DNA of 64,000 nucleotides, from positions 3,286,001 through 3,350,000 of the forward strand of contig NZ_CP063845.1 in NCBI RefSeq assembly GCF_021018745.1, read 5' to 3'. Shown here piece after piece: positions 50,043 to 57,084 of this stretch. Source of the DNA: Gloeobacter morelensis MG652769 (lineage in GTDB: Bacteria; Cyanobacteriota; Cyanobacteriia; Gloeobacterales; Gloeobacteraceae). A model generated the notes under the pieces. That model ran no database searches and had not been told where the DNA came from. It worked only from the letters and a program-made list of their open reading frames with translations. Every line of letters starts with the position of its first letter. Position 1 is the stretch's first letter. The translations under genes were made by a program, and so were the position numbers.

Positions 50043-50583
50043 ATGTCAAGAGTTTCGTTTAGGGTAATCTCAACATCTGCTGCAGTATTGCTTGTATTTG
50101 CAATCTCAGGTCCGGTTTTCTGTCCCGTGTTGGCTCAAACAAAGGGTGGCCCAGTAGGCAAAGCCGCCGTTGCCGAATTAATGCGCTCTCGCCAGTGCGT
50201 CTCATGCAACCTGGCCGGAGCAGATTTAAATAATGTGGATTTAAGCGGCGTGGATCTAAGTTTTGCAAGCCTTCGGGCGGTAAACCTTCGTGGCAGTAAT
50301 CTGACAGGTGCACTGTTGAACGGGGCCGACTTACGCGGGGCGAAGATCGAAGGCGCCAACCTTACAGGTGTGGGTTGTCTCAACTGCAATCTCGGCGGGG
50401 CGAGCTTGCGTGGGGCGACAATGGCAGGCCCTGGACAATGCCGATTTGACAGGGGCTGATTTGTCCAATACAGATTTTGCCAGGGCAGGAGGTCGTGCCA
50501 GGAGTACCATAGGGGCAATCCTCCCAGACGGTACTATTTGCCGTCCGCCTGCCACCAGTCCTGGCGTATGCCCTTACCGTTGA
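50043..50583 (+). pseudogene. Frameshifted exported pentapeptide-repeat gene
   Basis: The first frame runs from ATG 50043 to 50459 and encodes a signal peptide (about 1-31), MRSRQCVSCNLAGADL and tandem A(D/N)LxG repeats. Near 50426 the repeats switch to the next frame, which continues NADLTGADLSNTDF and ends at 50583 with TIGAILPDGTICRPP. Removing one G in the GCAGGCCCTGG run near 50426 rejoins both frames into a protein of about 180 residues. It may be a true pseudogene or a sequencing error. Confidence 0.72.
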
Positions 50584-50883: not shown

Positions 50884-53418
50884 CTACCCGATAATCAGCA
50901 CCCACAGTCCACACGCCAGGGTCAGAAGCCCGAGATGCTGCGGCAAAAGTGATCGCACCGGTAGGCGCGCGATTTTTTGGGTAAGCCAGACGCTCAGCGG
51001 CACCGACGCGATCAACAAAGCCCCCTGCAAGAAAGTGATCACCGCCGGATGGGCGACCAGCACCGGCAGGTCCGTTCCGGCAAGTCCGAACGTGGCCAGG
51101 GTGACCGGGACAATTCTGCCGGCTTCCCCGAGGCCCAGGTTTAAGTAATGGGCGAGGGTGCCCCCCAGCACCAGGGGCAAATAGCCATAGGCCAATTCGA
51201 CGAACGGCCGGGAGTTCTGCCCGCGTGCCACCAGGCGAAACAGGCCGTGGGCTGCGAGCGGCACTAGGGCTGGGACGGCCAGGGCAATCAGTGCCAGCGC
51301 CAGATGCGCTCCAAACGCCTCGATCCCCCATGGCCAGCCGAGTCGGCTCTGCACCTCGGGTAAGCGGTGCAGAAAAACGCCGCCCAACAGCAACAGCAAC
51401 AGCGCCACCTCGTAGCTGCGCGGGACGTGGGTCGTCCACAGTTCGATGCCGGGTGGGCGGAGATTGAGTTCGACCGAGCGGTGCGGGCAGGCTTTGAGGC
51501 AGGTCATACAGAGCACGCAGTCGCGGTTGTCCTCGAGCTGGGCGGGGTGGGAGTAGAGTGGACAACCGCCGGTCGCCTGGCCTTCGTCCTTGGCGGGACC
51601 GCCTTTGTAGCACTGGTAGGTGGTGCAGGTGGCCGAGCAGATGCCTTGCTGGGCACGCAGTTCGGTGACGGCGAGTTTGGCGAATAGACCGTTCATACCG
51701 CCAATCGGACAGAGATACCGGCACCAGAAGCGCCGCTCGAAGATCAGCGAACAGACCACCGCTCCGCCAGTAATCAGCAGCAGCAGCCAGGCGGAGAGAT
51801 AAGCGGTGTTTTGCAAGTCCCACAGTTCTTCCCACAGAAAAATCAGGACGAACAGGGCAAAGAGAAACCAGCCGCCCCAGCGCTCGGCCTGCTCACGGGG
51901 CCAGCGCCCGAGGGCGCGCGGGAAGATAATCAGCGAAACTTTTTGGACGATTTCTCCCCAGATCATGAAGGGGCAGACCGCGCACCAGAGGCGGCCCACG
52001 AAGGGGAAACCGACCAGTACCAGCGGCCACCACCAGGCCCAGAACATATTGAGCGCAAAGTTCTCCTCGCGCTGTTGCGGCCCGACAAAGAGCACGGCGA
52101 CGATGAAGACAAAAAAACCGGCCGTAAACCCGAAGTTGATCCGGTCGGGCCACCAGGGACTGCGCAAAAAGTTCCTCAGCCACGGAGATCCATTCAGCAA
52201 GTTGGCGCGAAAGCGTTTTTTGCGCCCCTGGGCAGGCCAGAAGACTTCTTCGCCCAGTTCGCGCGCCCCGGCCGCCTGGGCGACGGCGCGGCTGACCAGG
52301 GTGGCCAGTTCTGCAAGGTTGCCTGGAAAGTCGTAGCTCTGCAAACGCCTGAGCGCCTCGGGGCTCACGCGCGGTTTGAAGGGCAACCCCTCGGATCGGA
52401 CCAGCAAATTGAGGTAGTAATCGACCTGCACGGCGATGTCGCCCTTGCGCACCCGCAGCGGCGGCACCTTGATGACGTGGCCCATCAGTCGCTCCAGGCC
52501 CGAGAACGCTTTTTCAGAAACCAGCACAACGCGGGCGCGCAGGGACCGGGCCGCCGGCAAGGTCGCTTCTGTGCGGGCAACCGGTTGGTAAGTGCCGGTG
52601 GCAAGCATCCGCTCCAGCGCGGCAAACAGCTCCGCGCTCAGATCCTGGATGTTGTTGAGCACCAGCGTGCCCTCCCCCAACCATTCGATGAGGCCGGGCC
52701 GCCCGCCCGCGCGGCCGAACAGATCGGCGCCCCCCGGCTGGACGGTAGCGCAGTTGACCTGGATGACGGGTTCGCGGCGGGCGGGGGAGCCGAAGTGGAT
52801 GAGGGCCGCCGCGTTGTCCTTTTCGAGGCCCGGTTCGCCGAAGATGAGCACGGGCTTGCGATCGGCCGCGGCCGCCCGGATTTGCCGACGCAGGGTGGCG
52901 GCGTAGCGGCTTTTGCCCACGATGCCCCGGCGGGCGCGGGTAATCAAATAGGGCCTGAGGGCGGCAGCGCGCTCCTGCTCGTAATTGAGTTGGGCGGCCA
53001 GTTGCGCCACTTCCGCCGCCAGCACCCCCGGCAGAGCGCGGGCGATCTCAGGATGACGGGCGGCAAGGTCGCGAAAGCGCGCCGCCGGAACGGTCCAAAG
53101 CCGGCAGTCGGTAAGGGTGATGAGCGTCCGTTGCCCGGGCTGCTCCATCAGCAGTTCGACCAAATGCACCACCGATCCTGGAAGCAAACTGGTCGCGGCG
53201 GCCGGGCCGCCGGGACTGGTGCGGTAACTTTCGAGGCGACCTGCTTTGAGAATAATCAGTTCTTCAGCAGGACTGTCTTCGAGTACCAGCCGCCGGTTGG
53301 CCTGGACTGGGCGCTCTACCAGAGCGCCCGCCAAATCGGCAAGGGCCGTCTCACCCAGCGCTGCGAAGAGGGTATTTTCACGAAGCCAGGGGATGGCCTC
53401 GGCGGCGGTCGGCTGCAT
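50884..53418 (-). CDS. Fusion of cNMP-type sensor, degenerate NtrC-type AAA+ and membrane ferredoxin
   Basis: An 844-residue protein in three parts. Residues 1-130 form a cyclic-nucleotide-binding-like domain (LFAALGETALADLAGAL, DSPAEELIILKAGRLE). Residues about 165-400 resemble a sigma-54 activator AAA+ domain (VIQVNCATV, YDFPGNLAEL), but Walker A is the aberrant GEPGLEKDN, Walker B is LVLNNIQD with both acidic residues lost, and the GAFTGA loop is absent. The C-terminal half is polytopic, like NapH/NosR membrane ferredoxins: CAVCPFMIWGE, CRYLCPIGG and a ferredoxin motif CVLCMTCLKACP. It may move electrons under control of the sensor part. Cyanobacteria lack sigma-54, so transcription activation is unlikely. 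Confidence 0.82.
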   Translation of the reverse strand: MQPTAAEAIPWLRENTLFAALGETALADLAGALVERPVQANRRLVLEDSPAEELIILKAGRLESYRTSPGGPAAATSLLPGSVVHLVELLMEQPGQRTLITLTDCRLWTVPAARFRDLAARHPEIARALPGVLAAEVAQLAAQLNYEQERAAALRPYLITRARRGIVGKSRYAATLRRQIRAAAADRKPVLIFGEPGLEKDNAAALIHFGSPARREPVIQVNCATVQPGGADLFGRAGGRPGLIEWLGEGTLVLNNIQDLSAELFAALERMLATGTYQPVARTEATLPAARSLRARVVLVSEKAFSGLERLMGHVIKVPPLRVRKGDIAVQVDYYLNLLVRSEGLPFKPRVSPEALRRLQSYDFPGNLAELATLVSRAVAQAAGARELGEEVFWPAQGRKKRFRANLLNGSPWLRNFLRSPWWPDRINFGFTAGFFVFIVAVLFVGPQQREENFALNMFWAWWWPLVLVGFPFVGRLWCAVCPFMIWGEIVQKVSLIIFPRALGRWPREQAERWGGWFLFALFVLIFLWEELWDLQNTAYLSAWLLLLITGGAVVCSLIFERRFWCRYLCPIGGMNGLFAKLAVTELRAQQGICSATCTTYQCYKGGPAKDEGQATGGCPLYSHPAQLEDNRDCVLCMTCLKACPHRSVELNLRPPGIELWTTHVPRSYEVALLLLLLGGVFLHRLPEVQSRLGWPWGIEAFGAHLALALIALAVPALVPLAAHGLFRLVARGQNSRPFVELAYGYLPLVLGGTLAHYLNLGLGEAGRIVPVTLATFGLAGTDLPVLVAHPAVITFLQGALLIASVPLSVWLTQKIARLPVRSLLPQHLGLLTLACGLWVLIIG

Positions 53419-53589: not shown

Positions 53590-55167
53590 ATGCAAGGTTA
53601 TACGCTGCCCCCGGAATTAAAACTGCCCGTCGCCGACAGCCCCGGCATCGGCGTCGTCCTTTTGCCCGAGTCGCTCGACTGGAACTTGATCCGCTCGCTG
53701 AGCGGCAAACTTGCAGAAGAACTGCGCTCCCTCGTGCCGCTCGCCTTTTATAATAAACAGCTGTATCTGGGTAGCTTCAGCGCCCTCACCGAGGCCGATC
53801 TGCGCCGCCTGCGCGAGAAGCTCCCCTGCGACATTCGCGCACTGACCCTCGCCTCCTCCGAGGTCCGCCGCTGGTGGCAAATCGGGCGCGAGCGGCTGCC
53901 GGAATATTTTCAGAGCGCCGGAGGCGGCGGTCTTGAGCCCCTCGCAGCGTCGGAGCCCTCGGTGGCCATCACCATCGGCTCCGACGGCACCCCCGAGGGC
54001 AAGCGCATCAGCGCCCAGCTGCAAAGGCTCCTCAACGAAGCACTCAAAAGCCGCGCCAGCGACATCCACCTCGAATCGCAGGAAGACGGCCTCAGGGTGC
54101 GCTTTCGCATCGACGGCCTCCTGCGCGAGATGGGCACTTTTCCGGTTGCCGAGAGCAAAGCACTCATCTCGCGGGTCAAGGTGCTTGCCGAACTCGACAT
54201 CGCCAACCACAGAAGTCCCCAGGACGGCCGGGTCACCCAAGAAATCAACGGCCAGCTGGTCGATTTGCGCGTGAGCACCCTGCCCTGCCTGCACGGCGAA
54301 AAGGCCGTTCTGCGGCTGCTGCCCAAGAACAACACCTTCACGCTGCTGGAAGAGCTGGGTTTCGACGCGGCGGATCTGGCCACCTACCGCGGTTGGCTCA
54401 GTCGCGCCCAGGGGTTGATTTTGATCACCGGTCCCACCGGTTCGGGCAAGACCAGCACGCTCTACACCAGCCTGCGCGGCATCCTCAAGCCCGAGTGCAA
54501 CATTGTCACTATCGAAGATCCGATCGAATACCAGCTGGCCGGCATCAACCAGGTGCAGGTGCACCCGAAGGCGGGACTCACCTTCGCCAGCGGCCTGCGC
54601 TCGATTCTCCGGCAGGATCCCGACATCATCATGGTGGGTGAAATCCGCGACCTGGAGACCGCCCAGACGGTATTCCAGGCGGCGATGACCGGCCACCTGG
54701 TGCTGTGCACGCTGCACACCAACGACGCGCCCAGTGCTGTGAGCCGCTTGCTCGACATGCAGGTGGAACCGTATTTGATCGCCGGGGCACTGGTGGGGGT
54801 GGTCGCCCAGCGGCTGGTGCGCCGGGTGTGCCGCCACTGCGGCGAACCGTACTGCCCCGACAGCGTCGATCTGCAGCGGCTCAAACTGGACGCCCATCCC
54901 GAGTACGCCAATGTTCCGCTCGAATGGAAGCGCGCCCGCGGCTGCCAGCACTGCTTCGGGTCGGGCTACTTCGGCCGCGAGGGCATCTTCGAGGTGATGG
55001 AAGTCGACAACCACCTGCAGGGGCTCATCCACGCCCGCGCCTCCAACGCCGAAATCACCACCTACCTGCGCGCGCGCAACATCCGCTCGCTGCCCGAGGC
55101 CGGCATCGCCAAGGTCATGGAGGGCAGCACCACCATTGAGGAACTTCTGCGGGTTGTGTCAGTCTAG
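53590..55167 (+). CDS. gspE: Type II secretion/type IV pilus-type ATPase (GspE)
   Basis: A 525-residue secretion ATPase. Walker A is GPTGSGKTS (about residue 283), the Asp box and Walker B lie in DPDIIMVGEIRDLETA, and the His box is in TGHLVLCTLHTNDA. A zinc-binding tetracysteine (VCRHCGEPYC, then GCQHCFGSG) lies at about 415-460, as in GspE/PilB. SRASDIHLES is the N2 motif. It powers pilus or pseudopilus assembly. The start ATG 53590 has a weak ribosome-binding site. It opens a plus-strand operon with the secretin 21 bp downstream; no GspF or PilC gene is nearby. Confidence 0.93.
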   Translation: MQGYTLPPELKLPVADSPGIGVVLLPESLDWNLIRSLSGKLAEELRSLVPLAFYNKQLYLGSFSALTEADLRRLREKLPCDIRALTLASSEVRRWWQIGRERLPEYFQSAGGGGLEPLAASEPSVAITIGSDGTPEGKRISAQLQRLLNEALKSRASDIHLESQEDGLRVRFRIDGLLREMGTFPVAESKALISRVKVLAELDIANHRSPQDGRVTQEINGQLVDLRVSTLPCLHGEKAVLRLLPKNNTFTLLEELGFDAADLATYRGWLSRAQGLILITGPTGSGKTSTLYTSLRGILKPECNIVTIEDPIEYQLAGINQVQVHPKAGLTFASGLRSILRQDPDIIMVGEIRDLETAQTVFQAAMTGHLVLCTLHTNDAPSAVSRLLDMQVEPYLIAGALVGVVAQRLVRRVCRHCGEPYCPDSVDLQRLKLDAHPEYANVPLEWKRARGCQHCFGSGYFGREGIFEVMEVDNHLQGLIHARASNAEITTYLRARNIRSLPEAGIAKVMEGSTTIEELLRVVSV

Positions 55168-55188
55168 ACGGGCGTCCATCGGAGAAAA

Positions 55189-57084
55189 ATGCACGTGAAA
55201 CCCTGGCTCAGCTGGCCCGCCGGACTCCTGCTCGCCGGTTATCTGGGGACTGCGGCCTGGGCCGCCCCCCTGGTGGGCATCGACGTGGAAGGCAACACCC
55301 TGCGCATTCGGACCACGGGAACGGTCGCCTTTCAAATCGAGCGCAACACCCCCAACGAGGTGGTGCTGTTTTTGCCTGGCACCGAACCGGGTACCGCGGC
55401 CGCCACCCAGGAAACGGCCGCCGGGACGGTGAGCGTGCAGGCGGTGGCCGGGGGTCTGCGCCTTTCCTTTAAGCCCCGCGCCCTGGGCAGTACCTACCAG
55501 GTCGTCGCGGGTCCAGCGGTGGCGGACAGCCAGACGATCGAAATTCGCGGCTCGGGGGGACTGGCAACGGTGCCGCCCCCGCCGCCCACAGCCCAGACGC
55601 CGCCAGTTTCACCTGAAGAGCGGGTGAGCCTGAAGGTGCGCGACGGTGATGTCAAAGACACGCTCGCGCTGCTCGGGCGGGTGGCCAGGGCCAACGTCGT
55701 CACCGAAAGCTCGGTCAGCGGCCGGGTCTCGCTCAACCTTGAGCAGGTCACCTTCAACGACGCCCTCACCGCCGTCGCCCAGGTGGCGGGCCTCACAATC
55801 AACAAATCCGAAGGCAATGTCTATGTGGTGAGCCAAACCAAAAGCGGCCTGTCCCAGCTGCCCGTGCCCACTACCCCCGGCGGCGCCGACCCGAGCAAGC
55901 GACCGGTCAGCTTCAGCGTCAAAAGCGCCGAACTGGGCACCGTGGTCGAAAATATCTCCAACCAGGCGGGGGCGCAGCTCATCATCAAAGGCCAACTCTC
56001 CGACCGGGTGACCGGCCGGGTCTCGGGTCTCCCCTTCGAGGAAGCCCTCGGCCAACTGCTCAACGGCACCCGCTACGGCTTTGTGCGCGAGGGCCGGACC
56101 TATCTCATCGGCGATGCCACCCCCGGTACGCCCACCAGCCGGGCCATCGAGCGCACGGAGGCGATCGCCCTCTCGTTCACCCAGGCGAAGAACGTACCCA
56201 AGCTCATCCCGGCGAGCCTCACCCAATTTGTCAAAATCGACGAGCCGCGCAACGCCGTGGTGGTGAGCGGCACCGACGTGCTGCGCACCCGGGTGCGCAA
56301 CTTGCTGCAGCAGATCGACAAACCCCTGCGCCAGGTGGTCTTCGAAGTGAAGATTGTCGAACTGAGCGATATCGGCTCGCGCGAACTGAACGCCCTGCGC
56401 ACCATCCAGTCCGGCAGCGCCGTCTCGCCCGGCAACACCGCTCCTTTGAGCCTGGGTGGTTTATTATCGCCACCCACCTCGTTTGCCACCTTCAACGACA
56501 TTGCCCGCGCCATCGTCGTGATCAACGGGCTGATCACCGAGAACAAAGCGCGGGTGGTCACCGACACCAAGCTCAACACGATCACCGGTCAAAAAGCGTC
56601 GATCGATGTGCAGACCGACATCAACTTGATTCTCAATCAGCTGACCAACGTCAGCGGGGCGACGGTCAACAACACCACCCTCAGCACCATCCGCGCCGGC
56701 ACCGTGGTCGAGTTGACCCCCACCGTCCAGGCCGACGGCAACGTGCTGGCCGAGTTGAGTGTCGAGTCCTCTGTGCCTCAGGGCACCACCACGGTGACCT
56801 CGGCCGGCACGACCGTTCCCCCGAACATCGCCCGGCGCAAGGTCAAAAATATCATCCTGGTCAAAGACGGCCAGACCCTCGAAATCGGCGGGCTCATCCA
56901 GACCACCAATCGCGAGAACATCACCCGTGTGCCGTTTTTTGGCTATATCCCGCTTATCGGTCAGCTGTTCAGCAACACCAATGTGAGCCTAGAACAGAGC
57001 GAACTGGTGGTCTTCATCACCCCGCGCGTGCGCGACGTGCAGCCTTTGCCCGACACCAAACTGCCTCTGGAGCCGCCGCGGTGA
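55189..57084 (+). CDS. Secretin with AMIN-like and N-domains
   Basis: A 631-residue outer-membrane channel. A signal peptide (about 1-25) precedes an AMIN-like beta domain (VGIDVEGNTLRIRTTG), then a Pro-rich linker, STN/N1 repeats (VKDTLALLGRVARANVV, AELGTVVENISNQAG), and the secretin core with VFEVKIVELSD and ending in FGYIPLIGQLFSN, then ELVVFITPRV. AGAAAAA with GGAG precedes ATG by six bases. It forms the outer-membrane pore for a secretion or pilus system. Stop overlaps the next gene by four bases. Confidence 0.92.
   Translation: MHVKPWLSWPAGLLLAGYLGTAAWAAPLVGIDVEGNTLRIRTTGTVAFQIERNTPNEVVLFLPGTEPGTAAATQETAAGTVSVQAVAGGLRLSFKPRALGSTYQVVAGPAVADSQTIEIRGSGGLATVPPPPPTAQTPPVSPEERVSLKVRDGDVKDTLALLGRVARANVVTESSVSGRVSLNLEQVTFNDALTAVAQVAGLTINKSEGNVYVVSQTKSGLSQLPVPTTPGGADPSKRPVSFSVKSAELGTVVENISNQAGAQLIIKGQLSDRVTGRVSGLPFEEALGQLLNGTRYGFVREGRTYLIGDATPGTPTSRAIERTEAIALSFTQAKNVPKLIPASLTQFVKIDEPRNAVVVSGTDVLRTRVRNLLQQIDKPLRQVVFEVKIVELSDIGSRELNALRTIQSGSAVSPGNTAPLSLGGLLSPPTSFATFNDIARAIVVINGLITENKARVVTDTKLNTITGQKASIDVQTDINLILNQLTNVSGATVNNTTLSTIRAGTVVELTPTVQADGNVLAELSVESSVPQGTTTVTSAGTTVPPNIARRKVKNIILVKDGQTLEIGGLIQTTNRENITRVPFFGYIPLIGQLFSNTNVSLEQSELVVFITPRVRDVQPLPDTKLPLEPPR

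Follow-up and report, generated by a model that had tools for sequence, protein, structure and literature searches.

A cyanobacterial protein combining a CRP-fold domain, a degenerate bEBP-type AAA+ domain and a putative membrane Fe-S domain

VpsR and FleQ are soluble DNA-binding transcription factors and, as AAA+ regulators of the bEBP type, are able to work without canonical sigma-54 activation. NosR, which we take to be a looser comparison for the membrane domain described here, has an N-terminal extracytoplasmic FMN-binding domain. TyrR, DhaR and HupR are bEBP relatives that lack a functional GAFTGA motif and work with sigma-70 (PMC3162934). The 844-residue protein considered below is a new combination of these known kinds of domain and is conserved in many cyanobacteria. 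Common as it is across that phylum, no description of it was found in the open-access literature searched.

The likeness to VpsR and FleQ lies in the fold and sequence of the AAA+ domain (E 2.6e-33 for VpsR, Z 24 for FleQ), and VpsR likewise has no GAFTGA loop and has Asn in place of the Walker B aspartate. However, where VpsR and FleQ carry a DNA-binding domain, the cyanobacterial protein has a membrane domain with the cysteines of an Fe-S protein. With the NapH/MauN type (TIGR02163) it shares membrane helices bearing CX2-3CP motifs, followed by ferredoxin cysteines, but it has five more helices at its C-terminus, is fused to a soluble half and has no conserved partner genes. A general Pfam scan gave no match to an FMN-binding domain.

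Gene, domain layout and distribution

The window, meaning the whole 64,000-nucleotide stretch of DNA that was analysed, comes from the 5.1-Mb genome of Gloeobacter morelensis. The gene lies at 50884..53418 on the minus strand, as do all the features below, and is one open reading frame with an ATG start and no internal stop. It is probably monocistronic, lying between a divergent gene upstream (53590, plus strand) and a convergent one downstream (50043-50459, plus strand). The divergent stretch at 53590-57084 encodes a GspE/PilB-like ATPase and secretin-like genes, and four loci have the ATPase gene among the neighbours. The initial annotation had read a sensor, an AAA+ domain and a membrane ferredoxin as parts of one protein; the same single frame is present in 115 further distinct proteins, which bears this out and rules out a sequencing error or a false fusion.

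Pfam finds cNMP_binding at residues 36-122 (E 3.3e-12), Sigma54_activat at 166-286 (1.3e-13) and, C-terminal to these, AAA_lid_14 at 322-384 (2.6e-9) and Fer4_5 at 543-582 (8.7e-7). The CRP-fold domain takes up residues 8-130 (53029..53397; PF00027) and is joined by a helical linker, residues 131-164 (52927..53028; helix 129-157 in the structure model; dN/dS 0.06-0.16), to the AAA+ core, residues 165-318 (52465..52926; PF00158), and its lid, residues 319-396 (52231..52464; PF25601). The AlphaFold model of the whole protein, whose input was without two rows from plasmid records, has a mean pLDDT of 85 and a pTM of 0.55, so confidence extends to the individual domains and not to how they are arranged. 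Mean identity is highest in the Fe-S segment (86%), followed by 58% in the AAA core and 44% in the sensor.

The sensor resembles the CRP/FNR-type cNMP-binding domains in its Pfam match and in its fold (Z about 17 against solved cNMP domains by VIA-align), and its pLDDT is mostly 85-95, with one patch at 72-77. It differs from them in lacking an HTH and in its phosphate-binding cassette, where the Glu is found in 106 of 116 orthologues and the Arg in just 35; the cassette of a divergent paralogue group, group B, is different again. The domain is missing altogether from all eight proteins of a further group, group C, from the protein at locus L133 and from some orthologues (L029, L031), all of which still have the AAA+ and membrane parts. 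Control by a cyclic nucleotide, proposed at first, should therefore not be assumed.

A scan of GTDB contigs gave 325 relatives or loci, of which 80 were kept, all cyanobacterial; outside the cyanobacteria, the search for the full architecture covered plasmids. The nearest named relative is from Aphanocapsa lilacina HA4352-LM1 (94% identity). Matches at E 0.001 or better occur in 46 of 59 relatives, short domain-only matches included, and matches at 1e-15 in 74 of 292 genomes of the phylum, one of them being a plain bEBP match. The counts of motifs given here rest on 116 distinct orthologous proteins (group A), and a tree built from the membrane part recovers group B and group C as single groups, both with full support. 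Two genomes carry 1121-residue versions (L026:277-3642 and L027:277-3642), in which one sensor is followed by two tandem pseudo-AAA+ domains, both without the catalytic glutamate.

The degenerate AAA+ domain and the absence of sigma-54

The AAA+ domain derives from the bEBPs, as its resemblance to a sigma-54 activator had suggested from the start: PF00158 is above cut-off, and residues 161-400 of the model superimpose on FleQ, NtrX, NtrC1 and PspF with Z 22-24 and an rmsd of about 2-3 A over some 225 residues (VIA-align). By sequence profile the best solved relatives are NifA (E 2e-34) and then VpsR. In place of the C-terminal HTH of sigma-54 activators, which Pfam does not find, stands the membrane Fe-S domain.

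Judging from its motifs, the domain is catalytically dead. The Walker B motif reads TLVLNN (52651..52668), with Asn-Asn for Asp-Glu; NN is found in 114 of the 116 orthologues, SN in one and DH in one. In the alignments the L1 loop is deleted, leaving RAGGRPG at its site (52693..52713), and neither GAFTG nor GAYTG is found in any of the 116, so the reported loss of the Walker B acids and of the GAFTGA loop stands. The arginine-finger segment (FREDLYYRL in active bEBPs) is gone at 52471..52515, where NifA has an insertion relative to the protein's profile. Walker A is degenerate as well: GEPGLEKDN (52813..52839) has a Glu for the second glycine and retains the lysine, Lys200, which is present in 116/116, while the second glycine position is Glu in 84 of the orthologues and Gly in 28. 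Taken together, the NN at Walker B, the loss of the GAFTGA and arginine-finger segments and the degenerate Walker A predict a domain that does not hydrolyse ATP.

Could intact motifs survive in the relatives? For Walker A they do in part: about a quarter of group A members have GxxGxGK, and group B mostly has GSGKT or GTGKT. For Walker B none is intact. Group B has versions such as IDN, IDQ, LDN and LNN; group C, with Walker A as GEPGLEKDN, has IDQ, LDQ or more decayed forms. Every member listed, whether of group A, B or C, is without the Walker B glutamate, and the GAFTGA loop is missing from all three groups; by their sequences, these losses are common to the groups and the decay of Walker A differs among them. 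The AAA part is not decaying at present, given its dN/dS of 0.12-0.25 against three congeners, and appears to be preserved in its dead form.

That cyanobacteria lack sigma-54, as had been assumed for this DNA, agrees with the finding that sigma-54 and its activators are absent from 29 cyanobacteria (PMC3162934). In the window genome and 58 relatives, RpoN (PF04552) was over cut-off in 0 of 59 genomes, and in the sample of the phylum in 1 of 292. That one match, in a Nostoc-like genome (G170), is an orphan frame of about 200 residues (L164:3915-4523) that matches the RpoN DNA-binding domain at E 2.3e-16, with a visible RRTVTKY box. The 844-residue protein is the only strong PF00158 match of the window genome, and the remaining matches listed, at E of about 1e-7 or above, are weak and probably belong to other AAA+ proteins. 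What appears to be the genome's only strong bEBP-type AAA+ protein is, by its motifs, dead, under purifying selection, and found where sigma-54 is absent.

Two further observations concern this domain family. In another class of the phylum, a frame in genome G153 (L163:1749-3710) has two tandem bEBP AAA+ domains with GAYTGA and GSFTNA loops and an intact FLDE Walker B, and that genome has no PF04552 match at 1e-5. A role in a defence system was considered for the 844-residue protein and rejected, the PADLOC matches being confined to the AAA part of RtcR-like regulators; PHROGs gave two weak matches, to families of unknown function.

The membrane Fe-S domain

Nine membrane helices are predicted from the model and from hydropathy. 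The first four lie within residues 422-560 (51739..52155), as model helices 422-445, 454-481, 508-532 and 539-559, and the other five within residues 668-842 (50893..51417), which also hold the invariant E670, Y744, E765 and Q798. A CX2CP motif with C479 and C482 (51970..51984) and a CX3CP motif with C566 and C570 (51706..51723; PF12801) are followed by a ferredoxin-like segment (51487..51639) with C594, C598, C603, C619, C634, C637, C640 and C644. All 12 cysteines are invariant in the 116 orthologues and in groups B and C as well, and with the Fer4_5 match they uphold the proposed fusion of the AAA+ domain to a membrane ferredoxin. The eight ferredoxin-type cysteines would suffice for two [4Fe-4S] clusters, and the segment probably faces the cytoplasm, as four helices precede it after a soluble N-terminus. 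It is from the invariant cysteines alone that we infer electron transfer.

The description of this domain as NapH/NosR-like holds for the CX2-3CP motifs and the ferredoxin cysteines, but the relationship is a distant one (TIGR02163 gives 36 bits against a curated cut-off of 213). No PDB fold matched the membrane half at E 0.001 or better, and the best VIA-align scores (Z 5.4, to unrelated helical proteins) are uninformative. In the ferredoxin-like segment the pLDDT is below 50 at residues 591-615 and 623-636.

A free-standing relative occurs in Deinococcus ficus (WP_027463891.1, a 4Fe-4S membrane protein); its membrane domain is homologous, with 31.8% identity over 93% of that domain. It and its haloarchaeal relatives share the order of the CX2-3C and ferredoxin cysteines but, unlike the cyanobacterial protein, have no CRP-fold or AAA+ part. 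The gene upstream of WP_027463891.1 encodes an unrelated His-rich protein.

Possible roles and gene neighbours

A dead bEBP-type domain that is conserved, fused to an Fe-S module and found where sigma-54 is absent is most naturally read as an AAA+ domain reused for a scaffold or switch. We tentatively favour an Fe-S redox protein in the membrane that is controlled by a recycled AAA+ domain without hydrolytic activity. The nine-helix C-terminal half, with its cysteines facing the cytoplasm, would hold two [4Fe-4S] clusters and a four-cysteine CX2-3CP site, and electrons would move, in one direction or the other, between a partner in the membrane, for instance quinone, and an electron donor or acceptor in the cytoplasm. 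The former sigma-54 activator would have lost ATP hydrolysis, inter-subunit sensing and the loop that contacts sigma-54 and retained its fold and the Walker A lysine. Its most likely role is that of an adaptor, working by oligomerisation or conformational change, which tells the redox module what state the N-terminal CRP-fold domain, or a nucleotide bound to the protein, is in. The single frame found in 115 further proteins, the 12 invariant cysteines, the bEBP-like AAA fold, the conserved defects and the purifying selection on the AAA part support this, as do the greater conservation of the AAA core than of the sensor and the sensor-less members that keep the AAA+ and membrane parts together. 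It is weakened by the poor model at the Fe-S segment, by the lack of a clear PDB match for the membrane fold and by the uncertain inter-domain arrangement. It is also weakened by the neighbours of group A, among which there is no recurring redox partner. There is no conserved neighbourhood, the top neighbour family recurring in at most 17 of 110 loci, and a functional partner drawn from the group A neighbours was rejected for that reason.

The same orphan status, frequent among genes for signalling proteins, favours a reading that runs the other way. The Fe-S domain in the membrane would then be a redox sensor, and the pseudo-AAA+ and CRP-fold half would be its output, binding a partner protein for which a transcription factor, the sigma-70 RNA polymerase or a cyclase are candidates. 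TyrR, DhaR and HupR, which act with sigma-70 without a working GAFTGA (PMC3162934), offer a precedent. However, the protein has neither a DNA-binding domain nor an effector enzyme, it is the Fe-S and membrane module rather than the soluble half that is most conserved, and nine helices with invariant Glu, Tyr and Gln residues exceed what a sensor needs. We regard this direction, and the partners with it, as possible but somewhat unlikely.

Alternatively, the AAA+ domain could act, in the manner of VpsR and FleQ, as a receptor for a nucleotide or second messenger, in which binding of ATP or c-di-GMP without hydrolysis is the controlling signal. VpsR, the second-best solved relative, is close in its Walker B (GTLLLND against GTLLLNN) and also has no L1 loop; a c-di-GMP-bound structure exists for FleQ, and the titles of the VpsR entries name c-di-GMP binding. 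All orthologues have the P-loop lysine, and group B keeps GSGKT or GTGKT. On the other hand, the Glu that most orthologues have at the second P-loop glycine should hinder phosphate binding. Such a receptor is compatible with an adaptor that governs a redox module, and as an explanation of its own we consider it unlikely. Far less probable still is an ordinary Fe-S membrane protein with an inert, tolerated, vestigial CRP-fold and AAA+ half: the lost catalytic motifs and the free-standing relatives in Deinococcus and haloarchaea would fit it, but the AAA part is under purifying selection, the degenerate motifs are strictly conserved and no intact cyanobacterial frame without the AAA+ part was found among those sampled.

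If the favoured reading of a redox protein under a recycled AAA+ domain is true, an ATPase domain has switched trade, from activating transcription to serving as part of a membrane redox protein. One could go further, doubtfully, and see in it the last bEBP-type AAA+ domain of a lineage without sigma-54, now a ring or switch that responds to nucleotide without hydrolysing it and gates electron flow through the membrane Fe-S module, with one branch devoted to sulfide or cysteine metabolism.

That branch would be group B, whose neighbours give a concrete way into function. Seven of the 11 loci, which come from several families, have the group B gene next to cysteine synthase (CysK) or one gene away from it; in three of them the intergenic gap measures 6, 18 or 37 bp. 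Other neighbours vary by locus and include SQR-like flavoproteins (below the NCBIfam cut-offs and named by likeness only), rhodanese, DsrE, D1, Rieske and heterodisulfide-reductase-like genes. These neighbours suggest a sulfur or redox role for group B, in which the membrane module would probably serve sulfide or cysteine metabolism; this does not have to apply to group A. A sensor-less group B protein at L148:10203-10604 stands in a setting that differs from the cysteine synthase loci, being followed by a DUF1636 gene and a precorrin-reductase-like gene.
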